A DNA stretch of 45,939 nucleotides, from assembly GCA_003554945.1 (NCBI GenBank), contig PWHN01000070.1, positions 1-45,939 on the forward strand. The letters run 5' to 3'. Positions 244 through 20,140 of the stretch are shown one piece after another; position 1 is the first letter of the stretch; each line of letters begins with the position of its first letter. A model generated the notes under the pieces. The model saw nothing but the letters and a program-made list of their open reading frames with translations. It was not told the DNA's origin and did not search any database. A program made the translations under genes and the position numbers. Origin of the DNA: a bacterium (GTDB taxonomy: Bacteria; T1Sed10-126).

Positions 244-271
244 GCCTAAATCTTGAGTGGGAGATTTTACT

Positions 272-655
272 TTGAAGACAAAAAAATATACAATTCGGCG
301 TGAAGCTCAAGTTGGAAAAACAAGGGTCCTGTATGAAGGACCCGAAAGAAAGCTTGAGCAGCTCAAGGATTATTTTAATGACCAAAAGACGTCCGATGTC
401 TATCCGGCCCTGGAAAAGGGTTATGAGAGTGCCATATTCATATACACAACAGACGCCACTTTCATGAGCCGGCTACAAAAATTCTGTAAAGACAATTTAT
501 CGGGGCCAGCAGGCGGCAGTTTTGTTACCGGTCTCCTGCCGTCAATCTTAAAAACCGGACAAATTTTGTTCTATCTCTTTCTGATGTCCACAGTAATTTA
601 TATAATGTGGGAGCTACTAATGTTTGCGATACAGATTTTTTATCTCAGGTTATGA
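272..655 (+). CDS. Small membrane-anchored protein of unknown function
   Basis: I do not recognise the family. I chose the TTG at 272 because GGGAG lies about 9 bases upstream. The in-frame GTG at 257 has no ribosome binding site and overlaps that motif. The product is about 127 residues. The first 90 are charged and soluble-looking, with a short Lys/Arg-rich start. Residues 92-127 are strongly hydrophobic and end in Arg-Leu, so the protein is probably tail-anchored by one long helix or a tight helical hairpin, with most of it in the cytoplasm. Its stop lies a few bases before the next start, which suggests translational coupling to the cyclic-nucleotide-binding protein that follows. It may be a membrane partner of that protein, but this rests on position only. 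Confidence 0.6.
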   Translation: MKTKKYTIRREAQVGKTRVLYEGPERKLEQLKDYFNDQKTSDVYPALEKGYESAIFIYTTDATFMSRLQKFCKDNLSGPAGGSFVTGLLPSILKTGQILFYLFLMSTVIYIMWELLMFAIQIFYLRL

Positions 656-661
656 GGTTTG

Positions 662-1183
662 ATGTCGATGAAACCGGGCAACTGGTTTAAAAAAACAAGC
701 CGATATTTAAAATACAGGTTGGGGAAGCTTTCGCCGGAGCTAAAGGAAAAAATTGAAGTATTGAACAGCGTTGAGCTCTTTGAATTCTGCCGGGGAATAG
801 ATCTGGTGGAAATAGCGACCGAGTGCGAATTTAAAAACTGCGAAGCAGGTGAAACTGTAATTGAAGCCGGTGATACAGGGGATGGGCTCTACATGGTAGA
901 TACTGGCAAACACGAGGTATTTATAGACGACAGTGAAGATATGCTCGCCGAATTTGGAGCAGGAGATTATTTTGGTGAAATGTCGCTGATTGATAATAAA
1001 GACCGTTCTGCAAACGTAATCTGCAAAGAGGGGGGTCGACTTCTGTTCTTTTCTAAAGAGGGTTTTGTGGGACTTTTAAGAAAACAGAGCCAGGCCAGTT
1101 TCAGGTTTCTATTCGTCCAGGCGCGGACGCTCTCCCAGAGACTCCGTGAAACTAACAGAAAACTATCCGAAAAAACGGGGTAA
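662..1183 (+). CDS. Stand-alone cyclic-nucleotide-binding domain protein
   Basis: A single cNMP-binding (Crp-type) domain fills about residues 45-155 of a 173-residue protein, with no DNA-binding or enzymatic domain. The phosphate-binding cassette is visible at about residues 104-117: F-G-E-M-S-L, six residues, then R-S-A. Its Glu and Arg are the residues that hold ribose and cyclic phosphate in this family. The first 40 residues are basic and may contact the membrane or a partner. The last 20 look helical. ATG 662 and ATG 668 are both possible starts: GAGG at 654-657 lies 4 or 10 bases upstream. It is the second gene of a plus-strand run and is followed after 5 bases by another cNMP-binding gene. 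It probably acts as a cAMP-responsive adaptor. The partner is unknown. Confidence 0.85.
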   Translation: MSMKPGNWFKKTSRYLKYRLGKLSPELKEKIEVLNSVELFEFCRGIDLVEIATECEFKNCEAGETVIEAGDTGDGLYMVDTGKHEVFIDDSEDMLAEFGAGDYFGEMSLIDNKDRSANVICKEGGRLLFFSKEGFVGLLRKQSQASFRFLFVQARTLSQRLRETNRKLSEKTG

Positions 1184-1188
1184 TCAGT

Positions 1189-2871
1189 ATGGATAAAGCC
1201 TTGTTTAAAAAATTTCCCGACTATATCGAAAAATATAAGCCGGAGACTGTTCTGTTCCAGGAAGGAGATGTGGGCAATGATTTTTACATAATCGGTAAAG
1301 GTCTGATCAATATAATCAAAGAAATAGACGGCGAGGAAGTCGTGGTAGCCACCGTCGGACCGGGCGAAGTGTTGGGTGAAATGGCCCTGGTAGAAGAGGG
1401 AGCAAAACGTTCAGCGGCGGCCAAAGCTCACTCGGAGGTAGCCTGTCTTAAATTCGATCAGAAGCAATTTGACCAGTTGCTGGAGAAGAGCCAGGAATTC
1501 CGGCAGCGTATACTTCAGGTATTGTGCCAGCGCCTGCGGGGAACAACTAAGAAACTGACCGAAGCCCAGCATAAAGCCGATTTGATTGAAAACGCATCGT
1601 CACTACTTCTCTACTTTGTGTTAGACAACAATCTACAGGCAGTTAACAAAAAGGAATTTAAATTCGACCACAAAATAGACCGGGTGGCAAATATTTTTGG
1701 TCTAAAAGAGGAAGAAATCGAAGCATTATTAGTTACTGCCTCCAGCGACCGGTTAACAAGATTTGCGCCAGAGAAAGAAAAAATTGCTTCTGCGGTGGCA
1801 GAGAAAATACTGATGCAACTACTCGACAAACTATCCTTGATTCTGCCGGAGGAATTCGAACCAGAAGATTTAGAAAAAGACAAAACTGAGCTTGACGTAA
1901 CAGAAGCAGCGGAAAATGTAAAAAAACTGTATCTCACCCTGTCTAATACGACCACAGATATTACTTTTGACCAATACACCAAGCTTAAAAAATCCTGCCA
2001 GCAATTTGAAAAGCTATATGATCGAGGCAAAACAAGCGCCAGGGGAAACAAATCCGAGCAGGGCCAACTGGGCGCTTACACGCGAGGATTAAAACGGGAC
2101 CTGGGGACAAAAATTCGCAGCCAGATTAAAGAATTCAAAGAAAAAAATATAGAGGAGCGCTGTCGTTACCTTTACCTTTATGACCACGAGATTACCCATC
2201 AACAGGAAAGCGAGGAGAAAAGAGCGCTGCTAATTCTTCCAATCGGAATCAAAAATAACGGTTATCCGGCCCTGCTCGGTTACGGTTTAATAAAACCCGG
2301 GAAGAAATCTGAGCTACAGAAATTGACCTCCTCCCTGCGCAGCAGAGGCCTGAAGGGGGTCGAAATGGTAATAGCGAACAGGCTGGCAGGGATAGATGCG
2401 GCGGCAAGCAAAACCTTCGACGCCGGATGGAACTGGTGTCGAGATGATTTTATTGATACTATCCTGCAAGAGATCCCTGAAAATCAGCATCATAACGCCC
2501 GCGATCAGTTACGCGAAATATTTCGGCAAACTAGCGACAAGGAAAGAGAAGCTGAAGCCGAATCGATTGAACAGTGGTTTCGCAAGAAAGATTGGGATAA
2601 GGCGGCTGACTTAGTAGCAAAAAATTACGGGGCAGCAATCAATTTTTCTGAGATGCCCAAAACTCACTGGAAAAAACTACAGGGTTTTGAGTATATAGAT
2701 GAAGTGGCCGGGAAAATCATCTCGGAACTCAGACTTGACGAAGAAATTGACAGCTTTGAGAACCTGAATATACGCATCGGACTGTTACTTAACGAACTAC
2801 TGGAAAAAAACGATGGCGAGTTGATAGGACGCCCCATATTCGACGAATTATATCCAGAACAAGAAGAATAA
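1189..2871 (+). CDS. Crp-like cNMP-binding protein with a long unknown C-terminal region
   Basis: The N-terminal cNMP-binding domain (about residues 12-118) has a cassette at 61-78: L-G-E-M-A-L, then R-S-A at 74-76. Residues 139-200 resemble the Crp winged helix. A hydrophobic helix is followed by a helix-turn-helix-like run (VANIFGLKEEEIEALL) and a short wing, but the recognition helix is acidic, so DNA binding is doubtful. Residues 200-560 match nothing I can name. They are helical and charged, with a possible alpha/beta segment around 340-400 (ALLILPIGI, YPALLGYGLI). There is no signal peptide or membrane helix, so it is cytoplasmic. The ATG at 1189 follows GGGG by about 9 bases. Crp relatives are usually 210-240 residues, so the 360-residue tail is the odd feature. 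It could be a regulator fused to an effector. Confidence 0.75.
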   Translation: MDKALFKKFPDYIEKYKPETVLFQEGDVGNDFYIIGKGLINIIKEIDGEEVVVATVGPGEVLGEMALVEEGAKRSAAAKAHSEVACLKFDQKQFDQLLEKSQEFRQRILQVLCQRLRGTTKKLTEAQHKADLIENASSLLLYFVLDNNLQAVNKKEFKFDHKIDRVANIFGLKEEEIEALLVTASSDRLTRFAPEKEKIASAVAEKILMQLLDKLSLILPEEFEPEDLEKDKTELDVTEAAENVKKLYLTLSNTTTDITFDQYTKLKKSCQQFEKLYDRGKTSARGNKSEQGQLGAYTRGLKRDLGTKIRSQIKEFKEKNIEERCRYLYLYDHEITHQQESEEKRALLILPIGIKNNGYPALLGYGLIKPGKKSELQKLTSSLRSRGLKGVEMVIANRLAGIDAAASKTFDAGWNWCRDDFIDTILQEIPENQHHNARDQLREIFRQTSDKEREAEAESIEQWFRKKDWDKAADLVAKNYGAAINFSEMPKTHWKKLQGFEYIDEVAGKIISELRLDEEIDSFENLNIRIGLLLNELLEKNDGELIGRPIFDELYPEQEE

Positions 2872-2914
2872 TCACTCCTGAACGAGCAACGAATTTAGTA
2901 ACAAGGAGAATATT

Positions 2915-4372
2915 ATGGAAGAACATTCGATCGAGATAAGAATCGTGGGGGATTCGGGGCCTTTTTCACGACTTGGCAAAAGTATTGGTTATCACCTTAT
3001 TGCCGACGAGGCTGAATTTCTGGTCGACTGTGGGGGACCGGTCTTTCAGATGCTTGGTGAGCAGGGATTAGAGCGAATCGACGGTATAGTAGCAACCCAC
3101 ACCCACGAGGACCACAAGCGCTGGTTCACAGACATCTGTTTATTTAACAAATTTCCCGGGACGACCGACGAACCAATAAACCTCTTAGCCAGCCGCCGGA
3201 TTTTGGAAGATTACCGCCACTGTTCGGCAACGGCCCTGGAGCAAACATTGGGGCCGGATTCCAGGCGAATAGTTAACTACAGTTTTGAAGATTTTGCCCG
3301 ACCGATGCTCATTGCTCCAGAACCAAAATACCGGATAGTCAAGCCGGAACACCCCAAAAACAAAGACGACTGGCAGGTTGTCGACCAGAGAGGAAATATT
3401 CTGGGGCCGGAGCAGGCGCGGGTGATTATCCCGGAGAAAGACGTGGCACGCCCACGGCTGCTTTTTAAGGACCCTGAGCTCAAAGAGTGGGTTGAACCGC
3501 AGGCCTTCTACTCTTTTGACGACCCATGTTTCTACGATCAGGAAACTTACACTCCCTATGAACACGAAAACGGTCTTAAAATTTATCCCTATAAAGCTCC
3601 CGCCTGGCACGGCCTGTTTGTGACCGCGATGATGTTTGAATTCAACGGCAACCGGATATTCTTCAGCAGTGACACCCGCTACGATCCGGAGCTGTGGAAA
3701 GAACTAACCGAAAAGCTTGAACCAGCGGAGAGTCCTGACGCCGGCGCGGCGTCGGAAAATACCGTCTTAAAGAATAGAGATATCAACGACTATATCGAAC
3801 GTATCTGGAGTCAACGCCGCTACAAGAGGGCGATGGAATTTTACGATAAAGATAACAATCTGCCGGTAATCCACGACGTCTCGGGCCCCTGGGCCCGGGT
3901 GCATACTGACTACCGGGAGATTGAGGACCAGACGGGGGAGCTGCTTCTGACCCACAGCCCCGACGTCTTCACCACCCTGCACCCGATGGCTCACGTGGGC
4001 AAAACTTTCGTAATTAAAGAGAATGAATTCTACGAAAAAAACACCGGGGGCGACCTGTTTAGACCGACGGCTGACTGCTACTACAAGAACTTCCAGAATT
4101 TTTTTGTCGGATACGAAAATAACGAGGGGGGCCATTTCCTGGTGAAAACTCCGCGGGACACTTTTGATATAAAAGAGCAACCGGCGGACGAAGACAGAGT
4201 TCTTAAACAGATCCAGTTATACGAAGATATAGACGGTCGTTACTTCCCTTATTTCAAAGAGAAAAATGCTGAGTATTACAAAAGACCGGATGGCCGTGTG
4301 GAAAGGCTTTTTCATCATAAAGATGGTTCCAAAGGAACAATAGTAAAAGATCTGCGTCCCAATTTGCAGTAA
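2915..4372 (+). CDS. Metallo-beta-lactamase-fold hydrolase, unknown substrate
   Basis: This is a 485-residue protein with the metal ligands of the metallo-beta-lactamase fold. The H-T-H-E-D-H motif spans residues 62-67. A third-strand His is H232 in A-W-H-G-L-F, the bridging Asp is D253 in S-S-D-T-R-Y, and the last His is H320 in V-I-H-D. This full set supports an active two-metal centre. Residues 70-230 form a large insertion and 340-485 an extra C-terminal region, so it is much longer than RNase Z or small MBL enzymes. There is no signal peptide. AAGGAG lies just upstream of ATG 2915. It sits between two cNMP-binding genes and a K+ channel. A phosphodiesterase acting on cyclic nucleotides would fit, but neither sequence nor context proves it. 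Confidence 0.8.
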   Translation: MEEHSIEIRIVGDSGPFSRLGKSIGYHLIADEAEFLVDCGGPVFQMLGEQGLERIDGIVATHTHEDHKRWFTDICLFNKFPGTTDEPINLLASRRILEDYRHCSATALEQTLGPDSRRIVNYSFEDFARPMLIAPEPKYRIVKPEHPKNKDDWQVVDQRGNILGPEQARVIIPEKDVARPRLLFKDPELKEWVEPQAFYSFDDPCFYDQETYTPYEHENGLKIYPYKAPAWHGLFVTAMMFEFNGNRIFFSSDTRYDPELWKELTEKLEPAESPDAGAASENTVLKNRDINDYIERIWSQRRYKRAMEFYDKDNNLPVIHDVSGPWARVHTDYREIEDQTGELLLTHSPDVFTTLHPMAHVGKTFVIKENEFYEKNTGGDLFRPTADCYYKNFQNFFVGYENNEGGHFLVKTPRDTFDIKEQPADEDRVLKQIQLYEDIDGRYFPYFKEKNAEYYKRPDGRVERLFHHKDGSKGTIVKDLRPNLQ

Positions 4373-4395
4373 TCTTCTGAAGGTGAAGGGATAGC

Positions 4396-5412
4396 GTGCA
4401 GGAAAAACCGATAAACATAAAGGGGCAAATTTTTAGACTGGGATTACTGCTGAGCGGGATCATTTTAATAGGAACTCTCGGTTATTTTACTATTGAGGGA
4501 TGGAACCTCTCCGACTCTCTTTTCATGACAGTCATAACGATGTCCACCGTTGGATACGGGGCCGTTGACGACCTCTCCCAGGCCGGCCAATTTTTTACAA
4601 TTTTCCTGAACATTGGGGGAATTGCCCTCTATTCCACTGCTTTTTTTAAAATTGTAAGTATTGTTAGTGCAGGTTCAATTATTGAGATGATGCAGAGGGA
4701 TAAGATGGACAAGAAAATCGCCAAGCTGGAAAACCACTATATAATCTGCGGCTGTGGTGAAACGGTTAAGCATATAGCTCACGAACTATCTGACGTCAAA
4801 CTAACGTTTGTAATCGTCTGTCCCGACAACGAAGAGCTTGAGCAGAGAAACTTAGGGGATTACTACCATATATTCGGCGAGCCAGACAAAGAAAAAGTGT
4901 TAGAAAAAGCCGGAATTGAGAGAGCCCGGGGGATTTTCTGCGTTATGCCGGAAGACCGTGAAAATATACTTATAACCCTGACCGCTCGTTCATTAAACCC
5001 AAAACTGCAAATCACCACCAGTTGTGTAAGTGAAGAGGCTCATTCGAAGTTTCAAAAAGCGGGCGCCGATAGGATAATTTTTGCTGACCGGATCGGCGGA
5101 CTACGTATGGTTTCCGAGATGATACGTCCGGACGTGGTAACTTTCCTCGACAAGATGCTGCGCGAGAGCGGTGGGATCAGATTCGAGGAAATAGCGGTGG
5201 CTGAAAATTCACAACTAATTGGTCAGCCGATGACCTGCTGTGCCCCTGACAGACATTTCCAGGTTACCGTAGTTGCTGTGCTTAATAAAGAGGGAAAATA
5301 CGAATACAATCACCTCAGCATGGACGACGATCGTACCATAGAGGCGGGAGAAAAATTAGTAGTGATCGGCAGAAGTGAAGAAATAGAAAAAATGCGAGAA
5401 TATGCTTCTTGA
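4396..5412 (+). CDS. Two-TM potassium channel with RCK (TrkA-N/TrkA-C) domain
   Basis: The product is 338 residues. TM1 (about 11-33), a pore helix and the K+ selectivity filter T-V-G-Y-G (51-55), then TM2 (62-92), form one pore unit, as in MthK-type channels that assemble as tetramers. Residues 114-235 are an RCK/TrkA-N Rossmann domain starting at H-Y-I-I-C-G-C-G-E. Its Gly-rich loop is of the channel type rather than the classical GxGxxG. Residues 255-336 are a TrkA-C domain. RCK domains gate such channels in response to Ca2+, nucleotides or cyclic di-AMP. The ligand here cannot be read from sequence. The GTG start follows GAAGG. No cNMP-binding domain is fused, although two are encoded just upstream. 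A role in K+ efflux or osmotic balance is likely. Confidence 0.9.
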   Translation: MQEKPINIKGQIFRLGLLLSGIILIGTLGYFTIEGWNLSDSLFMTVITMSTVGYGAVDDLSQAGQFFTIFLNIGGIALYSTAFFKIVSIVSAGSIIEMMQRDKMDKKIAKLENHYIICGCGETVKHIAHELSDVKLTFVIVCPDNEELEQRNLGDYYHIFGEPDKEKVLEKAGIERARGIFCVMPEDRENILITLTARSLNPKLQITTSCVSEEAHSKFQKAGADRIIFADRIGGLRMVSEMIRPDVVTFLDKMLRESGGIRFEEIAVAENSQLIGQPMTCCAPDRHFQVTVVAVLNKEGKYEYNHLSMDDDRTIEAGEKLVVIGRSEEIEKMREYAS

Positions 5413-5413
5413 A

Positions 5414-8800: not shown

Positions 8801-9151
8801 CGTAGTTTCGGTATCACCTTCATCACCGGACGGCGGCGACGTTTCACTCCCCACAGCCAGGGCATCCGGTTGGTCGGCCTCGGGAAGACTTTCCCAGTAA
8901 TCGATTATCCGGCCCGGGATTAATTCCGTATCCCCCGCCTCCTGTTCCAGAAAATCTTCCCAGTGGTCAAGCACTTTAACTTCTAATTCCTTCTGTTCCT
9001 CTTCGACTGCCCGGATCGGGCCGAAGCTAAAAGCATACTCTGAGGAGGTTGTCGCTACTGCGGCGTTAGGGAAAACGAGGAAAAGTAAAGGGATAGCAAG
9101 CATTACAACCGGCATTAGTGTATTGATAATTTTTCCGGGGCGATCCAGCAT
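5822..9151 (-). CDS. Secreted GLUG-repeat surface protein with jelly-roll-like domain
   Basis: This is an 1109-residue, very acidic protein. A hydrophobic signal segment spans about residues 10-32 (ending VFPNAAVA). Residues 125-270 look like a carbohydrate-binding jelly-roll: L-L-D-N-A-D-F-E-x-W at the start, then a Y-S-V-R-V-x-G strand. Residues 345-675 carry GLUG-type repeats, with nine G-G-L-x-G cores spaced about 25-32 residues apart, a beta-solenoid typical of cell-surface and adhesin proteins. Residues 730-1109 are beta-rich and unrecognised. It probably acts outside the cell in attachment or glycan contact. No good ribosome binding site precedes the ATG at 9151. The start lies four bases after the upstream stop, so translation is probably coupled to the small barrel gene. 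Confidence 0.8.
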   Translation of the reverse strand: MLDRPGKIINTLMPVVMLAIPLLFLVFPNAAVATTSSEYAFSFGPIRAVEEEQKELEVKVLDHWEDFLEQEAGDTELIPGRIIDYWESLPEADQPDALAVGSETSPPSGDEGDTETTEVEPPHFEDNLLDNADFEQWTEEGRPESWQGSEDLSHNWWPDDEEALLGDYSVRVHGSGERILYQEVDLDGEFSTVAGKIWVAGTGSVELGLQLGDEETLWSSPLDLDRESWQEVENEATGAGEVEQITFKIRTYNTEEVFRALRLGVAWLGPAADGTEDAPYWITDWYDLDAIRDELEAHYVLVENLDQNSPGYDEIASADANEGAGWEPIGAIDFEEEDDDYDTPIFTPFNGGFDGQDLTISGLSVDRPDYVGAGLFTSIGESGQVANLNLIDVDITGYLASGPLAGASYGEVANVYASGAVYSDSVAGGLVGSNFKQEGDSGLITNSASEVEVSGLNEIGGLVGSNEGVIFESNATGDIIGHESANYIGGLVGLNDYGKVINSFAEGSVNGSEVVGGLVGSNKWGSIYNSYARGEVDGYEWVGGLAGENTSLISNSYAEGDVSGEHTIGGLVGLSEQEGEIFASHAAGNVTGGYEFIGGLVGKNCESLISNAYATGEVSSGYGEVGGLVGENSGFIEKTYAVGAVSAEEEGLAGGLIGSSFNGGEVDASFWDVETSGVEESAGGEGLTTFEMRLLTPYEDAGFDIVRTDAFENDGYPFFSGEPSPIWVIPEPSEDEVFTGKFMFVEMKLEDYTNPDERKITRESGEINLSTDGTFVYDSVYLSSDGSEAPDSDQGEYRIYPDNRLKILDSDHEVMEARISSDREMFLLTQTDEKADGVDHKFGLGLDASQPLIDVDDVEGDYAGSEMLFEYCPDYSFRDLSLKDEILEFEPHQDTGLLFSNVTDELFADGSIDSGPYELEYEVDELLKAYYVDQPQYEGATREKMFTPDRNLYLGGWGDYLEDNEFLIKQSLALGVAGCEMTEVDLAGQYEVHELSIYGLEFPGDFYDFGRSELIRGELQVDDAGNFNYDYEAVDNQGDTTLETFEQSFVHDFSNHFYIDGMEPSTEINSLRLSCSSEIIIWTRGWLEDPDEEYNSPRYQLGVGIRTVD

Positions 9152-9788: not shown

Positions 9789-9848
9789 TTGAGTAGTTGG
9801 GTATCAGCATTAAAATTTTCTGCGAGTACCGAGAAACAGGCTTTGACT

Positions 9849-11438
9849 ATGAACTATCTTAAAATAGTTGCCGTATTTCTGGCTGTTCTGGCCCTTATTT
9901 CCTGCCGAACTATTGTATTCACTCCCCCGGTTCAGGCCGGTAACTTTTTTCGCGAATCCCTATCCGGCGAACTCGACATGCGAGTTTATTACGACAGCAT
10001 TCGGGGCAACGAGGAGCTCTCCTTTAAAGAGGACGGGGTAAACTATCTCTCCGACGTATATTTTTATTACAACAAAATGGTGGGAATGGACGACAACATA
10101 GCCTTAAATGGCCAGCTATACCTGCGAGCCACCGACGATAGAAGATTTCAGACGAGAAACGACCGGGTGCGGGTGGAAAACCTCTACCTGACCGCTGAAC
10201 GCAATGGCTTCTGGCATCTAACCGGCGGTTATTTCAGTGAAAACTACAGTTCACTGACAATGAATACGACCCAGCTCGGCTTAAAGGGAAATTACCGGCT
10301 GCGGGAAGACCTGACCCTGAGTGCTTTTGGGGGACGGGACCGCCGGGCCCGTTCAGATCAGTACCGCCGCACAAGCATTGGCGGACAGGTAAACTGGCTG
10401 GAGAGTGACAGGACCGAATGGAAGCTTAACATAGTGCGCACGCGGGACCACAAATCAAGCGCTGACATAGAGGATTTGGCCCGCTCAAACGAGGTTATCT
10501 CGATGGCAACCAGACGTGAAGAGCTGGACGGGATGCTGAGTTTCCGGGGAGAAATTGCTTCCAGCCGCGTCGAAGAAGGAGACACTGAGCATAGTGGAAA
10601 ACACGCTTACAGAGCTAACCTTAACCTGTCGCCAACTGACGCCCTGAGAGCCGGCTACCGGTTCGAGCGGACGGACGAGCTATTTGAATCATTCACAGCC
10701 TCCAGCAGACAGGACCGTATCCTGCACCGCTCCAACCTCGATTACAACCCACAGTTTTTAAACCTGGAGCGTTTCGGTTTCAACTTCATGGGACAGCGAG
10801 ATATTGATGAGGTCACCAAAGGGGACGAACGTGACCGGCGCTCTCTACGTGGTGGCCTGGACTATCGCGGCGCTCCGGGAGACTGGCTGACCGATTTCAG
10901 CCTAGCAAATGAGCGTTACTGGGACGAGGCCCAATCGGCCGACCTGGACGAACGGCTTAATGAGATTGAACTTTACCTCGACCTGGGCTGGAGCGACCTA
11001 ATGCTGGCCTCCACCTATGAAGACCAGCACGGTGAAGCGGAACGGGCCCGGGCCCACCAGGCAGTTCTATTCTGGGATTATCATCTTCTTGGCATACCCA
11101 TTAACCTGGAGACAGGAATTGAATACCGTAAAGATCGTGAAGAAGACGGAGGCGAAAATATATACAACCGGCGCAGCGTGATCGAACAGCACGCAACCCT
11201 GGGCAGGGGCGACGCGCGACTGGGTCTTGACTACCGTTACGATTACGATCGTCGGGGCGGTGGCGGCGGTGACGTTGTCCAGGAAGAGATTGAAACCCGT
11301 TTTGATTACTTTTTGGATCGAGATTTTGAACGAATACTTTCCCTGCGGTTTGAATGGTTTGACAACCGGGATAAAGCCGATTCACAAAGAGACTACTCAG
11401 AATATACTTATGAACTCAGGTTCAGGAGTCAATTTTGA
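9849..11438 (+). CDS. Outer-membrane beta-barrel protein
   Basis: I chose ATG 9849 because a signal peptide begins there. The longer frame back to TTG 9789 adds 20 residues that do not look like one. The product is about 529 residues. After the hydrophobic core either signal peptidase I would cut near V-Q-A/G, or a lipobox-like L-I-S-C (Cys19) might be used. I favour the first because the rest looks like a barrel: many 9-11 residue amphipathic strands separated by charged turns, ending R-F-R-S-Q-F with the C-terminal Phe of outer-membrane proteins. It could be a porin or an anchor. The gene starts the long plus-strand cluster and its TGA overlaps the next ATG by one base, so it is probably co-expressed with the FecR protein. 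Confidence 0.75.
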   Translation: MNYLKIVAVFLAVLALISCRTIVFTPPVQAGNFFRESLSGELDMRVYYDSIRGNEELSFKEDGVNYLSDVYFYYNKMVGMDDNIALNGQLYLRATDDRRFQTRNDRVRVENLYLTAERNGFWHLTGGYFSENYSSLTMNTTQLGLKGNYRLREDLTLSAFGGRDRRARSDQYRRTSIGGQVNWLESDRTEWKLNIVRTRDHKSSADIEDLARSNEVISMATRREELDGMLSFRGEIASSRVEEGDTEHSGKHAYRANLNLSPTDALRAGYRFERTDELFESFTASSRQDRILHRSNLDYNPQFLNLERFGFNFMGQRDIDEVTKGDERDRRSLRGGLDYRGAPGDWLTDFSLANERYWDEAQSADLDERLNEIELYLDLGWSDLMLASTYEDQHGEAERARAHQAVLFWDYHLLGIPINLETGIEYRKDREEDGGENIYNRRSVIEQHATLGRGDARLGLDYRYDYDRRGGGGGDVVQEEIETRFDYFLDRDFERILSLRFEWFDNRDKADSQRDYSEYTYELRFRSQF

Positions 11439-13909
11439 TGAATAACTGGAAAAGTAGAGCATTAATTATCAGACAAAATATCGTTGTTTTTAAAATCTGG
11501 TTGGTTATCATATTCTTCTGTTCTATGGTCCTGGCACTATTTTATGCGCCCGGAGCCAGAGCAACTGAAATTAATTTGAGCATTTATAATCTGGAGGGTA
11601 ACGTAAGCCAGCAACGGGCCGAAGAGGATCTAAAACCAGAAGTCGGTGACGCCATCAGGGAGGGAGATGTGCTGCGCACCGACGAGAATTCCACAGCAAC
11701 AATAGTAATTCCCGGTTTAACTTACATGGAAATTGCGCCGGGATCGGAACTGCAGATACACCAGTTAACCGCCCGGAGGGAGTCGCGGGGACTATTCTTT
11801 TTTGCAGAAGAAGTAGAGATCAGGGAAATATTGATGGAAACCCCCGGAGGAGAAATTCGCTCTACCACCGCCGAAGAGCCAGAGGCGGAACTTGAGCTGG
11901 ATTTTTTTACTCCTAACGCCGTAATGGGTGTTCGCGGAACCACATTTGATGCGACAGCGGTTCCCGGCGAGTTCTCTGAAGCCGGTGTGCTGGATGGCGA
12001 AGTTGATTTTAGAAATCGCGACGCACCCGAACACCGGGTCTCGGTTGGCGAAAGACAACGCTCACGACTGAGTGTTGATGAAATTGAACCCTCAATTCCA
12101 ACCGAACTGGAAGCGGAACGAGCGGCAGCGCTGGAACGGCTGCGTGCACAAGGAAGCGAAGGTATGCGCCGGCCGCCCGAAATAGACGAAGTCACGCTGG
12201 ACGGGGAAGCCCTGGAGACAGAAACCGAGATAGCATATCGCCGGGAGCGTTCCTTTCTACTGACCGGTAGCGCCCACGGCGCCGAGGAAAATGTGAGGGG
12301 AATCCGAGTTCAGTTAAACGGTGAAAATATTTCCCCCGACGAATCGATCCAGCCGGGGGAAATTATTGATCCCGAAAGCCCCGCCTTCCCCGGAAATATC
12401 TTTGACCCCGGGGAACCGCTGTTTCCGGGGGCAAGCTGGGAGTTTGAATGGACTCCGCCGGTCCCCGGCGAAGGTACAGCAGACGAATACGTGCTGACCG
12501 TCCAGGCGCTTGACACAAGCGGTAGAGTCTCACGACGGCGAGAATATGTAATCAAGCTCGTCCACGAGGTGACCGAATATCCCTGGCCGGCTGACCTGCC
12601 GGAAGGAGAGGTCGGTATTGAGGTAGAATATATTGCTTCATTTTCAATCGACGATATTGAATTTCCTTTTCACGTCTACCAGGGAGACCTGCGGGATAAC
12701 GAACTGGAAATCGAGTTGTCCGACGCCGGGCTGGAAGGACTGGCCTTTTCCCTTGACGCGGGCATGAGCTGGCAGATTCCCGAACACGGGGGCGGAACGA
12801 TTTTGAGGGTTAGTCCTGAGCTGCTGGCTGCGGACGCTGTGGAGCTGGTCGCCTGGACCGACGAGGCCGTTGGAAGACCACTGGCGCTGGCTGATAAAAT
12901 TGGCGAGGTAATTTTTGAACCTCTACGGTTCGAAGACCTCTGGCGGCAGCAGGTGAGCGCTTTTGCACAAGCCGTGGAAAGACGCAGCGAAAGCGATCTG
13001 CGCGAACTGCTTGACGATGATTTTATTATTGAAAACATCATTTTAAATTCACTGGGAGAAGTCTCCGTCAGCACCGACGACAAGGAAGAATTTATCCGCG
13101 ACTGGATACGCGGTTTTTTCCGGCGTGCACGTGGATTGAGAGTGCGAGAGGATATTCAAAGAGTACACGGAGACCGGCGGGGAGCTGATGTGCGAGCCGA
13201 AATAGAGTATGAGTTCGAAATCAACCGGCTCATGGAAGAAAACCCGGGGAGCAGCTTTGATTTTCAGGTTATAATTGAAAGTGAACTTGACCTGGCGCGG
13301 GCCGACAACGGACAGTTTTTATTTACCGACTTATCAGTCAACGAACTGGATACTATGAGAGTCTACTACTGGGCAAGAGAATTCACCATCGGGGTCAGCA
13401 CAGAAGTAGAAAAAACCGGTATTTTTAGTGTGAACCCGGGATTGCCGACGGAAGATAACATTCATTATCAAGAATTTGGTGCGCGCAGCAAGGACTGGAT
13501 TGGATTTGAAGCGACCAACGGCGATACCCCGAGCATCAGCATAATAATGTTAATTGATGACGCGGAAGCCGGCGAATACGGAATTTACGGGTTAGATGTT
13601 GAATCATGGTTTGAAATAGACGAGATACCGGCGGCTGGCTACTACTCGGAAATTTTGCCCGAAGATCGAGAGCGGCCCGAAACTCTAATCTCTCCCGCTG
13701 AGTTTGAAGGCGACTACGTGGGCGATTTTTTCGCCAGCCGGCTCAAGTCCGGAGGAATTAATTACTCGGCAGTATTTGAAATAGCTGACTGGGACGTCAA
13801 CCGTGAAGAGCTGACAATAAGTGCCGTCGGGGCGGTGGATTTTTCAGGCGATCCGGAAAATCCAAGCTCAACCGCTGTAAGAAACTTTAGAAACAGAAGG
13901 CCGAGGTGA
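11438..13909 (+). CDS. FecR-domain periplasmic protein with NTF2-like domain
   Basis: The start is ATG 11438, overlapping the previous stop as TGATG, with GGAG 9 bases upstream. The in-frame TTG at 11435 is not needed. The product is 823 residues. A signal anchor spans about 17-42 and ends near A-R-A. A FecR-type domain lies at 70-205, with the hallmark run T-P-N-A-V-M-G-V-R-G-T-T-F at 158-170. Ig-like or beta-rich segments follow. Residues 501-637 have an NTF2/SnoaL-like pattern (helix A-F-A-Q-A-V, then long strands). FecR domains elsewhere sense or relay envelope signals. No sigma or anti-sigma gene is adjacent here. The neighbours are an outer-membrane barrel and a CHASE2 cyclase, so the protein may present periplasmic signals to the cyclase. 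Confidence 0.8.
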   Translation: MNNWKSRALIIRQNIVVFKIWLVIIFFCSMVLALFYAPGARATEINLSIYNLEGNVSQQRAEEDLKPEVGDAIREGDVLRTDENSTATIVIPGLTYMEIAPGSELQIHQLTARRESRGLFFFAEEVEIREILMETPGGEIRSTTAEEPEAELELDFFTPNAVMGVRGTTFDATAVPGEFSEAGVLDGEVDFRNRDAPEHRVSVGERQRSRLSVDEIEPSIPTELEAERAAALERLRAQGSEGMRRPPEIDEVTLDGEALETETEIAYRRERSFLLTGSAHGAEENVRGIRVQLNGENISPDESIQPGEIIDPESPAFPGNIFDPGEPLFPGASWEFEWTPPVPGEGTADEYVLTVQALDTSGRVSRRREYVIKLVHEVTEYPWPADLPEGEVGIEVEYIASFSIDDIEFPFHVYQGDLRDNELEIELSDAGLEGLAFSLDAGMSWQIPEHGGGTILRVSPELLAADAVELVAWTDEAVGRPLALADKIGEVIFEPLRFEDLWRQQVSAFAQAVERRSESDLRELLDDDFIIENIILNSLGEVSVSTDDKEEFIRDWIRGFFRRARGLRVREDIQRVHGDRRGADVRAEIEYEFEINRLMEENPGSSFDFQVIIESELDLARADNGQFLFTDLSVNELDTMRVYYWAREFTIGVSTEVEKTGIFSVNPGLPTEDNIHYQEFGARSKDWIGFEATNGDTPSISIIMLIDDAEAGEYGIYGLDVESWFEIDEIPAAGYYSEILPEDRERPETLISPAEFEGDYVGDFFASRLKSGGINYSAVFEIADWDVNREELTISAVGAVDFSGDPENPSSTAVRNFRNRRPR

Positions 13910-14390: not shown

Positions 14391-14864
14391 ATGAAACTTA
14401 TTACATTCAATAAATTGCCAGGTCTGGTGATAGTCATACTTTTGCTGGGCGGATGTGCTTTGATCGCACCGAACGGCGAGTATCCAGAACGGCCGGGCCA
14501 GGAGCTAATGGACGAACTGGAGAGAGCTTACCGCCAGGGAAATTCTCGGGCAATAGCCAATCTGATACACCCTGACGCAGAAATTCCCGTAGCGGACTTA
14601 AGAGCTGATCAAAGAGAAGTTTTTCGCAGGCGGCATGGTATAAGGTTGGACATTCACTCCCGTATTTATCGATATGACGAAGGACAGGACTATGCACGGG
14701 TTGAGACGAACTGGAATCTGAGCTGGAGGAAAGAGAACGTGGAGGTTGAAAAAAGGCGAGGTGAAACTGATTTTGAGTTACGTCTTTACAATAACCAGTG
14801 GCTTATATACAATCAATCAAGAGACAGTTTGCTCGGTGATCTTGAACCGGGAAGGACGGAATAA
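14391..14864 (+). CDS. Lipoprotein with NTF2-like domain
   Basis: The product is 157 residues. It has a short basic start, a hydrophobic stretch and the lipobox L-G-G-C with Cys22 as the lipidated residue, so it is a predicted membrane lipoprotein. After cleavage, residues 38-150 follow the NTF2/SnoaL pattern: an N-terminal helix (ELMDELERAYRQGN), then long strands (I-H-S-R-I-Y-R-Y, Y-A-R-V-E-T-N-W, F-E-L-R-L). The pattern resembles residues 501-637 of the FecR protein encoded just upstream. GGGG lies about 11 bases before the ATG. It is followed after 6 bases by the adenylate cyclase, so the two are probably one transcript. It could bind the periplasmic CHASE2 domain of the cyclase and modulate it, which is inference from position and location. 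Confidence 0.8.
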   Translation: MKLITFNKLPGLVIVILLLGGCALIAPNGEYPERPGQELMDELERAYRQGNSRAIANLIHPDAEIPVADLRADQREVFRRRHGIRLDIHSRIYRYDEGQDYARVETNWNLSWRKENVEVEKRRGETDFELRLYNNQWLIYNQSRDSLLGDLEPGRTE

Positions 14865-14870: not shown

Positions 14871-17135
14871 GTGAACAACATTAGCAAAAAAACCTCTATA
14901 TCCCTGGCAATCATTGCAGCAGTAGTCATTGCTGTTTCACTGGGCTGGGTGCTGGCCCGGGGAACAACTTTTGGAGAAACTATTGAACGGATAGAATACC
15001 CCCTGATCGACCTACGCCACCGCTGGTATGTCCAACGCGCTGACGTAGCCGACGAAATTGTATTGCTCGTAATCACTGACGAGTCGCTCACCCGTTTTGA
15101 AGACAACCTGGGCCGCTGGCCCTGGCCCCGACGAGTCTGGGGGGCAATAATACAACACCTCAGTGAAGCACGCGCAGTCAAATTTGATGTTGGATTCTGG
15201 GAAAAAAGTCCGCTGGAAGTTAGCCCACAAATAATGGATAGAATGCGCCAGCAACTCGCACAGCTCCAGCGCTATCAAACCACTCAGCCCGAGAGGGCAA
15301 AAGAAATTTACCAGCAACTTGAGGCCAGTTTTAATGATCTTGCAGTGTCAGACGACGTTTTGCTGGGCAATGCGACTGCAGAGGCCGGCCAGGTAGTTCA
15401 CAGCCTGACAACCGAAGAGCTCGTTCCCGGCGTCGATACGCTGCCCCCTTTAGCCGAACAAATCCTTAACCGTTATGGCTGGCAGTTGAGTGGCGATGTT
15501 AAAGCAGCCGCCCGCGGATCAATGGTTGTCCCGATCGAGGAACTGGCTGAAATCGCGAATCAAATCGCCCATATTGATTTTTTCCCCGACCAGGACGGTA
15601 TAGCTCGACGAGTCCAACCGTTTGTCGGCTCGCAGTTACAGCAAGGAGACCGTCTCTACGTTCCGTTGCTGGGTATAGCCGGACATCTCGGCGAGATGAC
15701 TCGGGAAGCAGAATACAAGAGCCGTCACTTGAAAATCGGTGACCACCGCCTGCCAATCGATCACCGGGGCAAAGTTCCCATACGTTATCGAGGTAAATTC
15801 CGGGAGTATACCGCCATACCTGTTGAAGCAATCTTAGAGCCACTAATAACCGGGGCTGACCCAGTTTATAAACCGGAGTGGTTTGAGGACCGGGTGGTGC
15901 TAATTGGTGCAACAGCGGCCGGGCTATTTGACCTGCAGGCGACGCCCACTGACCCGGCCCAGCCCGGGATGGGGATACACGCCGCCCTCTACGAGATGCT
16001 CAGAACAGGCGACTATCTGGAACCCGAACGACCGGAACAAACCGTATTAAGCGTAATTAGTGTCGGGCTCCTGGTTGGAATAATCACTATTTATTTTAGT
16101 CCCCTGCTCGGCTTACTGGCTGTGCTCGGCGTCCTGGGACTGCTGTTTGTGGCAGGGTTTCAGCTTTTCTCTTTCGGCTACACCATCAACCTTTCCCTGC
16201 CCCTATTGACCGGCATACTTGTCTACGGCGGCCTGACAACCCATAACGTATTTTACGAACAACAGCAGAAAAAGTTTATCCGCGATGCCTTTCAACACTA
16301 CCTGCCCGAGTCGGTACTGGAAACTATTCTTGCTGACCCCGACCGGCTGGTGCTTGAGGCTCGAAGACGCAAAGTAACGGTTTTATTCATGGATATCGCC
16401 GGCTTTACAAGCCTGAGTGAAGGATTGGAAGCAACAGAGGTCGCAAATAGATTGAATGAACTGCTGACCGGGTTGAGCCGCTGTGTCTTCAAACACGAGG
16501 GAATCATAGATAAATTTATCGGCGACGAGCTAATGGCCGAGTTTGGACTGCTGGAAGTCGAGCCCCCCGAACAGGAGACACGAGCCTGCCGGGCGGCCGA
16601 CGACATGTTGAAAGAGCTGGCAAACTACAACGAACGCAATCCCGATGATCCACTGGACATCCGAATTGGAATGAATACCGGCTGGGTTGCAGCCGGTAAC
16701 ATGGGCTCAGAGGACCTGTTCGATTATACAGTTATCGCTGACGCTGTTAACCTTGGTTCGCGACTTGAGGGAGTAAACAAAGTTTACGGGACCAAATGCA
16801 TGTTAAGCGGTGAAACTGCAAAAGGACTGCCGGAGGAGGCACTTATCCGCGAAATCGACCGGGTCCGGGTAAAAGGACGCGACGAGCCGGTCACTATACA
16901 TCAGTGGCTGGGCTGGCGCGATGAGGTTGGAAAGGATAAAATAGAGGCAGCTGAAATTTACGAAAAAGCACTCAGTTGTTACCGGGCGAAAAAATTTGAA
17001 GAGGCACTCAACGAGCTAACGAAACTTCCAGACGATGATTCTGCGGCGAACTGGTTGAGTGATCGCTGCCGGGAGCTGATTGAAGAACCACCGGCAGACG
17101 ACTGGGAGCCGGTAACAACACTAACATCGAAATAA
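14871..17135 (+). CDS. CHASE2-domain class IIIb adenylate cyclase
   Basis: It makes cyclic AMP from ATP at the inner membrane. The product is 754 residues. TM1 is at about 9-29, a periplasmic CHASE2 sensor domain at 35-385, three TMs at 393-460, and a cytoplasmic class III cyclase domain at 500-665. The catalytic set is complete: metal Asps D508 (F-M-D-I-A-G-F) and D552 (K-F-I-G-D), spaced 44 apart as in the family; purine-selecting Lys K548; N627 and R631 (V-N-L-G-S-R) for the transition state. The second purine-selecting residue is T620 instead of Asp, the mark of class IIIb cyclases, several of which respond to bicarbonate. The last 80 residues resemble a TPR-like tail. The start is GTG 14871. 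It is the only cyclase in the window and the probable source of ligand for five cNMP-binding proteins. Confidence 0.92.
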   Translation: MNNISKKTSISLAIIAAVVIAVSLGWVLARGTTFGETIERIEYPLIDLRHRWYVQRADVADEIVLLVITDESLTRFEDNLGRWPWPRRVWGAIIQHLSEARAVKFDVGFWEKSPLEVSPQIMDRMRQQLAQLQRYQTTQPERAKEIYQQLEASFNDLAVSDDVLLGNATAEAGQVVHSLTTEELVPGVDTLPPLAEQILNRYGWQLSGDVKAAARGSMVVPIEELAEIANQIAHIDFFPDQDGIARRVQPFVGSQLQQGDRLYVPLLGIAGHLGEMTREAEYKSRHLKIGDHRLPIDHRGKVPIRYRGKFREYTAIPVEAILEPLITGADPVYKPEWFEDRVVLIGATAAGLFDLQATPTDPAQPGMGIHAALYEMLRTGDYLEPERPEQTVLSVISVGLLVGIITIYFSPLLGLLAVLGVLGLLFVAGFQLFSFGYTINLSLPLLTGILVYGGLTTHNVFYEQQQKKFIRDAFQHYLPESVLETILADPDRLVLEARRRKVTVLFMDIAGFTSLSEGLEATEVANRLNELLTGLSRCVFKHEGIIDKFIGDELMAEFGLLEVEPPEQETRACRAADDMLKELANYNERNPDDPLDIRIGMNTGWVAAGNMGSEDLFDYTVIADAVNLGSRLEGVNKVYGTKCMLSGETAKGLPEEALIREIDRVRVKGRDEPVTIHQWLGWRDEVGKDKIEAAEIYEKALSCYRAKKFEEALNELTKLPDDDSAANWLSDRCRELIEEPPADDWEPVTTLTSK

Positions 17136-17157
17136 CTTCTGAATTATGGTGATATGA

Positions 17158-17703
17158 ATGGATCTCAAAAAAATTGGTAAAGAACTATTTTCCGGGCCGG
17201 ACAGCGAAAGCGAAAAACAGCTGGAAGTGCTGAAAAATTGTCCCCTGTTTGAGGGGTTGCCGGGAAAAGAACTAAAAAATTTGCAAGAGTTGCTTCACGA
17301 ACGTAATTTTGATCACGACGAAATCATTGTGAACCAGGGGGAACCGGCCAGCGCTATGTTCCTGATTGAATCGGGCGAAGTGCTGATTTATAAACCACAG
17401 CCGGACGGTGAACCGCGCGAAATTACTCGTTTGAAAGCCGGTGATTTTTTCGGAGAGCTGGCAATCTGCGAGGAACACCGGCGCAGCGCCAGCAGCGTCG
17501 CCCTAATCCCGACAAAAGTGCTGGTGCTCTTTCGTCAGGAATTCCTCTCCTACGCCCGCCAGAACAAGGAGGCTGGATTTACAATTTTAGTCAACCTGGC
17601 CGCCATGGTTGGCACGCGACTTAAAAATATTAACGACCGCTTTTTTGAGTTGATAGAGGAAAATAAAAAACTGCGAAACCAGCTTGAAAAAAACGAAGAA
17701 TGA
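17158..17703 (+). CDS. Stand-alone cyclic-nucleotide-binding domain protein
   Basis: The product is 181 residues with one cNMP-binding domain at about 27-145. The phosphate cassette is complete: F-G-E-L-A at 98-102, then R-S-A at 109-111. The start (about 1-20) is polar, and the last 25 residues (NDRFFELIEENKKLRNQLEK) form a short coiled coil that could mediate pairing. There is no DNA-binding domain. It lies 22 bases after the adenylate cyclase, so it is a prime candidate for its direct readout, and its 3' end overlaps the AI-2E-type transporter by four bases (ATGA). Co-translation with that exporter suggests that it may regulate the exporter, but no fusion or other evidence supports a contact. 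Confidence 0.85.
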   Translation: MDLKKIGKELFSGPDSESEKQLEVLKNCPLFEGLPGKELKNLQELLHERNFDHDEIIVNQGEPASAMFLIESGEVLIYKPQPDGEPREITRLKAGDFFGELAICEEHRRSASSVALIPTKVLVLFRQEFLSYARQNKEAGFTILVNLAAMVGTRLKNINDRFFELIEENKKLRNQLEKNEE

Positions 17704-18770
17704 ATCAAGCAAAAGCGTTAACCCTATCTTCCCGACAGTTAATTACCGTCCTCTACTACGCCTTGCCTCTCGTTTTTCTGGCTCTTGCGCTCTATTTTAT
17801 ACCGGTGCTCTACCACCTGGTGCTGATGTTTCTATTTTCTTACTTGATAAGCCACCTGTTTGTGCCGCCAATTAATTTCCTTGTCTGTCAAAATTTTTCC
17901 AGAAATTCAGCGACACTGACTGTCTTCCTGTTTATACTGCTAATTGCTACAGCGCTGGTCTGGGCCTATGCTCCCGCCACCTGGAACCAGGTTGTTGAAC
18001 TGCAGGAACAACTGGCTGATGGTGATTTAATGGAACTCTCCCGAAATTACGCCGCGCGAACGGAAAATTTAATCCCATTTCTTCCTCAAGGCAGTCTAAC
18101 CGCACGCATTGACGAACTCTACTCCTGGCTTTTCGGCCAGATGACCGGTATGTTAGCAAACGTGTACATCGTAATTCAGTACCTGATAATTGTTCCTTTT
18201 ATCGCCTTTTTCCTCGTTCGAGACCGTGAGCGACTGCGCCGCAGTGCCGTACAAAAAATACCTAACGCTTTTTTTGAAATGTTTTTTAACATATACTACA
18301 AAATTGACCAGCAAGTGGGAGAATATATGCGCGGCTTGATAATAGAAGCGCTTATCGTCGCGGTGCTTTCAATAATCGGTCTGGTTGCCCTTGGAGTCCC
18401 TTATGCTATAGTTATTGGCCTGTTTGCGGGGCTGGCAAATATTGTTCCTTACTTCGGTCCGATTGCCGGAGCGATACCGGCCGTGGCAATAAAATTTTTA
18501 GAAACTGGAGAAATTTATCCAACTGCACTTGTTGCCCTTGTATTCTTAATAATTCAGGTGCTGGATAACTTATGGTTGAAACCTTTTGTGTTTTCCCGTG
18601 GAATGAAGATGCATCCTCTGCTTGTATTTTTGGTAGTGGTAGGCGGTGGCCAGCTTGCGGGTATCCCGGGAATGATACTCGGAATCCCACTTGCGGCAAG
18701 CTTTTTAGTAATTTTCCGGGAATTTTACTGGGGGGTCCGCAACTACTCGTTTGTTGAAACGTTACATTAA
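17700..18770 (+). CDS. AI-2E family (PerM/TqsA-like) membrane transporter
   Basis: The product is 356 residues with the family layout of about seven or eight TMs. A helical pair lies at 20-60, a helix at 68-90, a soluble segment at 95-145, then five C-terminal helices. Family signatures are visible: G-L-A-N-I-V-P-Y-F-G-P-I-x-G-x-I-P near residue 245, and L-x-P-F-V-F-S-R-G-M-K-M-H-P with a G-I-P-G-M-I-L-G-I-P-L motif near the end. Members export small molecules: autoinducer-2 in TqsA, and Na+ (Li+)/H+ antiport in some halophile relatives. The substrate here is unknown. In a salt-adapted organism, ion export is as plausible as signal export. The start overlaps the stop of the cNMP-binding gene (ATGA). 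Confidence 0.88.
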   Translation: MNQAKALTLSSRQLITVLYYALPLVFLALALYFIPVLYHLVLMFLFSYLISHLFVPPINFLVCQNFSRNSATLTVFLFILLIATALVWAYAPATWNQVVELQEQLADGDLMELSRNYAARTENLIPFLPQGSLTARIDELYSWLFGQMTGMLANVYIVIQYLIIVPFIAFFLVRDRERLRRSAVQKIPNAFFEMFFNIYYKIDQQVGEYMRGLIIEALIVAVLSIIGLVALGVPYAIVIGLFAGLANIVPYFGPIAGAIPAVAIKFLETGEIYPTALVALVFLIIQVLDNLWLKPFVFSRGMKMHPLLVFLVVVGGGQLAGIPGMILGIPLAASFLVIFREFYWGVRNYSFVETLH

Positions 18771-18846
18771 TGAGATCGCCCCCGGGTAGATGGTTTCGGA
18801 GAGGGGCGGAGGTAAAAAGTTAAAAGTCTGAAAGAGAGAAATCGTA

Positions 18847-18896
18847 GATCGTAACCGTGGATTCCGGCTCGGAGGCCGGAATGATGTCAAATTCAA
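18847..18896. repeat. GGATTCCGG hairpin module, copy 2
   Basis: ATTCCGG (18861-18867) and CCGGAAT (18876-18882) form a hairpin. The 50 bases match copy 1 at 5547-5596 at about 90 percent. A degenerate AAAGTT-rich run precedes it at about 18811-18840, as the octamer array does for copy 1. The remainder of the 18771-18982 gap holds only the promoter below. Confidence 0.85.
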
Positions 18897-18931
18897 TGGT
18901 CGCTTGCCCGTAATGACAAACTAAACGGCAT

Positions 18932-18959
18932 TTGACAGTAGGCGCTAAACAGTTACCAT
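18932..18959 (+). promoter_or_regulatory. Candidate sigma-A promoter
   Basis: TTGACA at 18932-18937 is a perfect -35 box. TACCAT at 18954-18959 follows after 16 bases as a weak -10 and resembles the TACCCT and TATCCT boxes near 9690 and 9785. It would drive the two cNMP-binding genes at 18983 and 19466 independently of the cyclase. Confidence 0.4.
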
Positions 18960-18982
18960 TACCAATTCTGGGAGGCTGAATG

Positions 18983-19447
18983 ATGTCAAAAAAAATAGTT
19001 GCAAAACTAAAACAGATTGAAATATTTAGCGACGTTTCGGAGGAGGCACTGGAAGTAATTGTTGACAACAGTGAAATCGAGCGTTTTAAAAATGAAGAAA
19101 TTATTTTTAACGAAGGTGACGAATCAGACAAGAACTTATATGTGATTATAAACGGAACTGTTGCCGTACTCAAAAGCATGCGCCAGGGAGAAAGAGAGGT
19201 CGGACTTTTAAAAGAGGGGAAATATTTTGGGGAATTTGCATTATTCAGCCGGGAACCCAGACAGGCAACAATTGAAGCCCGTGAGACCACTACTCTACTA
19301 AAGATACCTTTCTACGCGCTGGAATCAATGAAAAAGGAGCATTCCCAGGCAGTCTTTAAAATTTATGAAAATATGTTCAGGCAGCTTGCCGGACAGTTCA
19401 GAGCAATGGCCGACAAAGCAGAAAAAACTCAATTTTGGTTTAATTAA
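18983..19447 (+). CDS. Stand-alone cyclic-nucleotide-binding domain protein
   Basis: I prefer ATG 18983, 8 bases after GGGAGG, over ATG 18980. The product is 154 residues and is almost entirely one cNMP-binding domain (about 10-125). The phosphate-binding cassette is Y-F-G-E-F-A-L at 81-87, followed by P-R-Q-A-T at 92-96, keeping the Glu and Arg that contact the cyclic phosphate. The C-terminal 25 residues are helical and end in Trp-Phe-Asn. There is no output domain. It is followed after 18 bases by a full Crp/Fnr regulator with a similar domain, so the two may have arisen by duplication or form a mixed dimer. Whether it binds cAMP or cGMP cannot be read with confidence. Confidence 0.85.
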   Translation: MSKKIVAKLKQIEIFSDVSEEALEVIVDNSEIERFKNEEIIFNEGDESDKNLYVIINGTVAVLKSMRQGEREVGLLKEGKYFGEFALFSREPRQATIEARETTTLLKIPFYALESMKKEHSQAVFKIYENMFRQLAGQFRAMADKAEKTQFWFN

Positions 19448-19465
19448 CCGCAGGAGGTAGTGCTG

Positions 19466-20140
19466 ATGGAAAAACATTTGCAAGAGCTTGATATTTTTGC
19501 AGGATTACCGGAAGAAGCCTACGAAAAAATAATAGAAGTAGCGGATCAAATAGAGCTGAGCGAAGAGGAAGTCCTCTTTCATGTGGCTGAACCGGGCGAT
19601 AAGCTTTATGTAATCGTGGACGGGCTTTTAAAAGTAAGCCGGCGGGATCCACTAAGTGAAAGGGAAAAAACCCTGGCCTTATTAAGTAAAGGAGAAATTG
19701 TAGGTGAAATGGCCTGCATGGCCAACCAGGGGCGCAGTGGGACAGCAACCGCCGTTCATGATTCCAGACTACTTGCCTTCACGAAAGAGGCCTTTGTCGA
19801 TCTGTTTGAAAAATACTCCCAGATTGGTTTGAACCTCTTCAATACGTTGAGTGAACGGCTGCTGCAGGTCGATAACGAACTGTTCAACTTTGCCTTCTTA
19901 AACATTCCCGGACGGCTGGTGACCTGTCTCTTCCGCCTGGCAGAAAAGTTTGGCCGCGAAGTTGAGGACGGAGTTAAGATTGAAGTGCAGCTTACACACG
20001 AACAACTGGCCAGTATTGTCGGAACCAACAGGGAAACAATCACCCGTTATCTGACGCAGCTTCGAGAAATCGCTGCATTGAGGTGTGAGAGTCAGAATAT
20101 TGTCCTGCTGGACCGCGGTAAATTAAAACAATGGTTGTGA
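19466..20140 (+). CDS. Crp/Fnr family transcription regulator
   Basis: The product is 224 residues from ATG 19466, 8 bases after AGGAGG. The upstream GTG and CTG codons are too close to it. The cNMP-binding domain spans about 8-120, the dimer helix 120-145, and the winged helix-turn-helix 150-222. The helix-turn-helix is clear: L-T-H-E-Q-L-A-S-I-V-G-T-N-R-E-T-I-T-R-Y-L at 176-196, with the N-R-E-T recognition pattern of Crp. The phosphate cassette is slightly altered: V-G-E-M-A-C, then R-S-G-T (90-93), with Gly where Ala is usual, so ligand affinity may differ. No Fnr cysteines are seen. It is the only clear DNA-binding output among the five cNMP-binding proteins and is a likely cAMP receptor. 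An octamer array starts right after its stop. Confidence 0.88.
   Translation: MEKHLQELDIFAGLPEEAYEKIIEVADQIELSEEEVLFHVAEPGDKLYVIVDGLLKVSRRDPLSEREKTLALLSKGEIVGEMACMANQGRSGTATAVHDSRLLAFTKEAFVDLFEKYSQIGLNLFNTLSERLLQVDNELFNFAFLNIPGRLVTCLFRLAEKFGREVEDGVKIEVQLTHEQLASIVGTNRETITRYLTQLREIAALRCESQNIVLLDRGKLKQWL

Follow-up and report, generated by a model that had tools for sequence, protein, structure and literature searches.

A candidate cAMP signalling locus combining a CHASE2 adenylyl-type cyclase, five cyclic-nucleotide-binding domains and a recurrent gene pair with an AI-2E family transporter

Introduction

Bacterial cAMP is mostly known through its action on transcription factors of the CRP type. 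In Sinorhizobium meliloti such a factor, Clr, belongs to a pathway that also comprises the outer-membrane protein NsrA and the CHASE2 cyclases CyaD1, CyaD2 and CyaK (PMC13001267, PMC7529298), and this pathway provides a precedent for the locus described here. Two further groups of proteins are relevant to it. Apyc1 and YhfI hydrolyse cyclic mononucleotides, with cAMP and cGMP preferred by YhfI (PMC9117128), and the AI-2E (UPF0118) family includes Na+(Li+)/H+ antiporters (PMC5379678, PMC7221264) as well as an AI-2 exporter (PMC9134010).

The window analysed here is a stretch of 45,939 nucleotides constituting an entire bacterial contig (G000:C69), from a genome of 2.2 Mb that is divided into 121 contigs and is 93.5% complete. 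We compare it with the only genome from the same family, which represents a sister genus (G001), and with loci from more distant bacteria.

Results

Positions 257-20140 of the window encode a single CHASE2-class III cyclase together with five cNMP-binding (CNB) domains, all on the plus strand. The initial annotation had reported the same set, and gene calls and Pfam both agree with it; the start codons differ slightly (659 instead of 662, 18980 instead of 18983 and 19460 instead of 19466), which is immaterial. Not only is this the sole class III cyclase (PF00211) of the genome, the same interval also holds five of the genome's seven CNB domains (PF00027), the other two being located elsewhere. 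Under uniform scatter, the presence of five out of seven such domains on one contig has p ~8e-8, and that of five within ~20 kb p ~1e-5. While right about the cyclase and the CNB domains, the initial annotation had overlooked the MBL-fold protein, the FecR and beta-barrel genes on the sensor side and the fusion of a CNB domain with a transposase domain.

The cyclase (14871..17135, +) displays the architecture of the CHASE2 class III adenylyl cyclases, with a CHASE2 sensor, transmembrane segments and a catalytic domain (Pfam CHASE2 134.5 bits, Guanylate_cyc 74.5 bits). In an alignment of seven homologues the metal-binding Asp508 and Asp552, the base-selecting Lys548 and Thr620, as well as Asn627 and Arg631, are kept. 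A Lys/Thr base-selecting pair is the mark of adenylyl cyclases of class IIIb, and these residues suggest that the enzyme is of the adenylyl type, with cAMP as its predicted product. Its gene starts 6 bp downstream of that for a 157-aa lipoprotein-like protein (14391..14864, +). Further upstream are the genes for an 824-aa exported protein with a FecR domain identified by Pfam (11435..13909, +) and a 549-aa exported protein (9789..11438, +); both have orthologues in G001, that of the latter lying by the cyclase. Judging from its C-terminus (RFRSQF) and from a strand-pattern test that is suggestive only, the 549-aa protein is a probable outer-membrane beta-barrel. The FecR protein is probably a partner of the CHASE2 sensor in the periplasm. 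Because a FecR protein has likewise been described next to CHASE2 histidine kinases (PMC5192318), this one is probably part of CHASE2 sensing and not of cAMP signalling as such. The minus strand at 5822-9151 encodes a 1109-aa exported protein with GLUG repeats, and a similar-looking protein is found in G001 (G001:C115, L209:3-2099).

The five CNB domains score 67.9-78.1 bits with the Pfam cNMP_binding profile (cut-off 27.5). Three of them, matching the number of bare domains given in the initial annotation, make up proteins of their own: CNB1 (659..1183, +; 174 aa), CNB3 (17158..17703, +; 181 aa) and CNB4 (18980..19447, +; 155 aa), the last with an apparent orthologue in G001. CNB2 (1189..2871, +; 560 aa) carries the transposase domain, and the fifth protein (19460..20140, +; 226 aa) is a transcription factor of the CRP/FNR type, in which Pfam recognizes a CNB domain and HTH_Crp_2. 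The phosphate cassettes read GEMSL..RSA, GEMAL...RSA (with one extra residue), GELAI..RSA, GEFAL..RQA and GEMAC..RSG. That of CNB1 is complete, and the earlier count of four complete cassettes proves too low, as the Glu and Arg are kept in all five. With the Pfam CNB fold and these two residues, all five qualify as cNMP-binding domain proteins, and cAMP may well be their ligand. A CRP-like protein on another contig of the genome (G000:C98, L045:1912-2610), near porin-like and chemoreceptor-like genes, has a degenerate cassette (AEAVI...YPVS).

Could the CNB domains of the window be reading something else? Some domains of this kind bind cGMP or need no ligand, and if those of the window responded to cGMP or to no ligand at all, the cyclase and its presumed readers would not constitute one cAMP circuit. 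The degenerate cassettes of the C98 protein and of three CNB proteins linked to AI-2E genes point in this direction, as does S. meliloti Clr, which is reported to respond to both cAMP and cGMP (PMC10127613). On the other hand, the sole class III cyclase of the genome has adenylyl-type residues, and the cassette Glu and Arg are retained without exception in the window. We consider a different ligand unlikely.

The gene following CNB2 encodes an MBL-fold hydrolase of 485 aa (2915..4372, +), a putative cNMP phosphodiesterase. Its MBL domain contains a motif of the HxHxDH type (HTHEDH, 3098-3115), and its best PDB sequence matches, which are weak, are the cNMP phosphodiesterases Apyc1 (7t28, 7u2r) and YhfI (6kns). 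The same two proteins are the best fold matches of the AlphaFold model, which can serve only as supportive evidence because the model is poor (pLDDT 45.6). The Pfam PDEase_II profile does not match the protein of the window, and its C-terminal half is without a known relative. Taken together, sequence and model suggest that the protein probably degrades cAMP.

The resemblance of the MBL protein to Apyc1 raises the alternative of a Pycsar-like antiphage system, in which the cyclase would activate effectors bearing CNB domains; PADLOC models for PycC and for PycTIR/effector proteins indeed match the cyclase and the CNB domains. These matches are, however, confined to the cyclase and CNB domains that such systems share with others. 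Effector domains, TIR or other, are absent, the cyclase combines a CHASE2 sensor with adenylyl-type residues, and the FecR/barrel neighbourhood, conserved in G001, is of a sensing type. We therefore reject this explanation as highly improbable.

Another peculiarity of the locus is the C-terminal part of CNB2, recognized as an IS256/Mutator transposase domain by Pfam (PF00872), by alignment with IS256 and by Foldseek, with the ISCth4 transposase as the best structural match. It is ~20% identical to real transposases and devoid of their N-terminal part, and the positions of the catalytic D, D and E of IS256 are occupied by Y, N and D in the alignment. The loss of the DDE triad is at odds with an active IS256 transposase. 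A fresh insertion of an IS element is disfavoured as well, owing to the low identity, the missing N-terminal part and the loss of all three catalytic residues. No orthologue of the transposase part was found across 386 genomes. CNB2 is thus similar to IS256/Mutator transposases such as ISCth4 in fold and alignment, and differs from them in its Y, N and D residues, in its truncation and in the CNB domain placed in front. Possibly, it represents a domesticated transposase controlled by a cyclic nucleotide.

The bare CNB domains had been proposed to act as adaptors for neighbouring proteins: one with a tail anchor, the AI-2E transporter and perhaps the K+ channel. This two-TM channel with RCK (TrkA-N/TrkA-C) domains assigned by Pfam (4396..5412, +) shares a gene run with CNB1, CNB2 and the MBL protein. 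Yet no CNB gene lies within 1.5 kb of any of its 29 best homologues beyond the window, which for these homologues speaks against a general linkage. A single independent locus, L126 from Pontiellaceae, combines a K+ channel, a CNB protein and a CHASE2 cyclase, and the evidence for a CNB adaptor of the channel is accordingly weak. The same run begins with orf257 (257..655, +; 132 aa), the end of which is separated from CNB1 by 3 bp. Its only hydrophobic stretch spans residues 103-131 and could be a C-terminal tail anchor; neither Pfam nor PADLOC matched the protein, and no homologue turned up in the loci examined.

To what extent is this gene content found elsewhere? A query of genome contigs with the single cyclase protein returned no relative, and an alignment query yielded 80 CHASE2-cyclase loci from GTDB genomes, whose flanks (1.2 Mb in all) were searched. 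A CNB domain is present in 21 of these loci, and in 15 it lies within 2.5 kb; the expected number of CNB loci is ~2 if the mean density of 41 genomes is applied and ~8 if that of the densest genome is used. MBL proteins occur in 23 loci, FecR in 21 and K+ channel-like proteins in 3. MBL and CNB are found together in 11 of the 80 (Fisher p 0.01, the related loci not being independent). The order cyclase-MBL-CNB is observed in beta-proteobacteria (L074, L098, L110, L132), Alphaproteobacteria (L090), Aminicenantes (L059) and Verrucomicrobia (L072), and cyclase-CNB-MBL in Myxococcota (L112). The PDEase_II profile of Pfam recognizes several of the MBL neighbours, in beta-proteobacteria and in Myxococcota. 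Closest to the set of the window is L126, with barrel, FecR, cyclase and MBL genes and the divergent K+ channel with its CNB protein.

The partners of the CNB domains vary among these loci and include, by reading of the sequences, CNB-CNB-rhodanese, MscS-CNB, SulP-CNB, CNB-acetate kinase, CNB-EAL and CRP-type proteins. The claim that one messenger has several outputs fits this variety, in which membrane transport proteins are represented. Fusions to acetate kinase, MscS-type channels and a SulP-type transporter, likewise named by reading, all stand beside CHASE2 cyclases (L058:5840-8275, L059:12909-14378, L072:2692-4389, L114:7612-9144 and L108:13522-15759), the MscS-CNB and SulP-CNB proteins being those of L059, L072, L114 and L108. 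In an unrelated genome, five CNB domains, distributed over two tandem proteins and a single one, surround a CHASE2 cyclase (L042, G040:C73:40000-59000). The protein encoded at L069:7547-9730 combines an MBL domain (HSHDDH) with weak CNB matches and may be a fusion joining the two functions; a CHASE2 cyclase is encoded ~0.3 kb away on the opposite strand.

The picture is different in G001. Its one cyclase is 50% identical to that of the window over the full length, with an MBL orthologue (46% identical) directly upstream and the FecR and barrel orthologues in divergent orientation next to this pair. No CNB gene is present on the 16.7 kb contig bearing the cyclase; the three CNB genes of G001 are on three other contigs, one paired with an AI-2E gene, one an apparent CNB4 orthologue and one by grpE-dnaK. 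The last encodes a bare domain and has an MltG-like gene and grpE-dnaK-dnaJ as its neighbours on either side (G001:C115, L209:3230-3706), and the same chaperone genes adjoin the CRP gene of the window, on the other side compared with G001. Scattering of the CNB genes away from the cyclase in relatives had been named in advance as evidence against the circuit, and it is what G001 displays: the complete cluster is not conserved and is, by virtue of this scattering, lineage-specific. The expected co-occurrence in other genomes thus holds for the widespread association of cyclase, MBL and CNB and fails for the full set. What is conserved is the barrel, FecR, cyclase and MBL genes, together with a CNB/AI-2E pair elsewhere in the genome.

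This distribution bears on the main rival to a single circuit, namely that two or three independent modules (orf257-CNB1-CNB2-MBL-K+ channel, barrel-FecR-cyclase, CNB3/AI-2E and CNB4-CRP being the candidates) have come to lie near each other by chance or under loose selection, perhaps sharing the cellular cAMP. Besides the scattering of the same kinds of genes in G001, it is suggested by the 9 kb with the opposite-strand GLUG protein and other genes between the two runs, and by a second CNB/AI-2E pair on contig C102, which has metabolic surroundings and is distant from any cyclase. Such an explanation has to contend with the improbability of five CNB domains in 20 kb under uniform scatter, with the joint occurrence of cyclase and MBL in G001 and with the recurrence of cyclase, MBL and CNB in other phyla. 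We regard it as a real but rather doubtful possibility.

The adaptor idea is strong for CNB3 and the AI-2E family transporter (17700..18770, +), whose genes overlap by 4 bp. Pairs of this kind number two in the genome of the window and one in G001; the second pair is syntenic in both genera (L046:3476-5252 on G000:C102, L047:4475-6164 on G001:C174) and adjoins genes that, by reading of the sequences, are malic enzyme-like, fumarase-like and oxaloacetate decarboxylase-like. These three transporters served as queries against 290 genomes, and reading of the best-matching loci covered 31 AI-2E proteins. For 16 of them, the gene is directly preceded by a bare CNB gene. The linked proteins take in nearly all of the best matches and span at least 12 families. 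In a maximum-likelihood tree they cluster (3 changes versus 10.7 in shuffles), deep support being weak; the tree script, which applied a 150-aa filter, labelled 15 as linked, and L142 is the sixteenth. CNB3 reaches 158.4 bits with a profile of the AI-2E-linked CNB proteins built without it, versus 95.6 with the general CNB profile, and the other CNB domains of the window gain little or nothing. Its better score and its position upstream of an AI-2E gene place CNB3 in this subfamily, as defined here. The cassette Glu and Arg are kept in 13 of the 16 linked CNB proteins and one of them is lost in 3, by reading of the sequences. An adjacent cyclase is documented here for the pair of the window, and the ligand of the pairs in other places could be a different one.

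Discussion

Starting from the gene content, the conserved ligand-binding and catalytic residues and the recurrence of both the cyclase-MBL-CNB neighbourhood and the CNB/AI-2E pair, we propose that these genes form a locus for cAMP signalling, a reading to which we give about even confidence. An envelope signal would be conveyed through the beta-barrel and FecR proteins to the CHASE2 adenylyl cyclase (14871), the resulting cAMP would be read by the five CNB proteins, and the MBL protein (2915) would reset the system by degrading it. The CRP-type protein (19460) would provide the transcriptional response, and CNB3, as a sensory subunit on a polypeptide of its own, would switch the product of the overlapping gene, a member of the family of Na+/H+ antiporters or exporters. 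CNB1, CNB2 and CNB4 might feed further outputs. The ligand, the phosphodiesterase activity, the physical coupling of CNB3 to its transporter and the direction of regulation are those that we infer from sequence and gene neighbourhood.

More tentatively, and with somewhat less than even confidence, we suggest that the bare CNB protein and the AI-2E protein constitute a widespread and undescribed two-subunit transport system gated by cyclic nucleotides, with the sensor as a separate polypeptide, which in the window is wired to the local cyclase. In a search of mainly openly accessible papers, we found none linking AI-2E proteins with cyclic-nucleotide binding. If the conserved pair is what it appears to be, it would offer a testable regulator for the poorly understood AI-2E family, and together with the recurring cyclase-MBL-CNB neighbourhood it would point to a fast, non-transcriptional control of membrane transport by cAMP in many phyla.

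How does the locus compare with the systems described so far? With the NsrA-CyaD1/CyaD2/CyaK-Clr pathway of S. meliloti it has in common, at the level of gene types, a probable outer-membrane beta-barrel as input, a CHASE2 adenylyl cyclase and a CRP-family output; it differs from that pathway in its single cyclase, five clustered CNB domains, MBL neighbour and CNB/AI-2E pair. The MBL protein shares with YhfI and Apyc1 the N-terminal MBL domain and the HxHxDH motif, and they rank first in the PDB for its sequence as well as its fold; unlike these proteins of ~250 aa, it is extended to 485 aa by a long unrelated C-terminal part, and the similarity is weak. Finally, the CNB/AI-2E pair resembles the single-chain membrane proteins gated by CNB domains, such as the MscS-CNB and SulP-CNB proteins and CNB-gated K+ channels, in that a CNB domain is tied to a membrane transport protein, whereas in the pair this domain is a separate protein encoded by an overlapping or adjacent gene.
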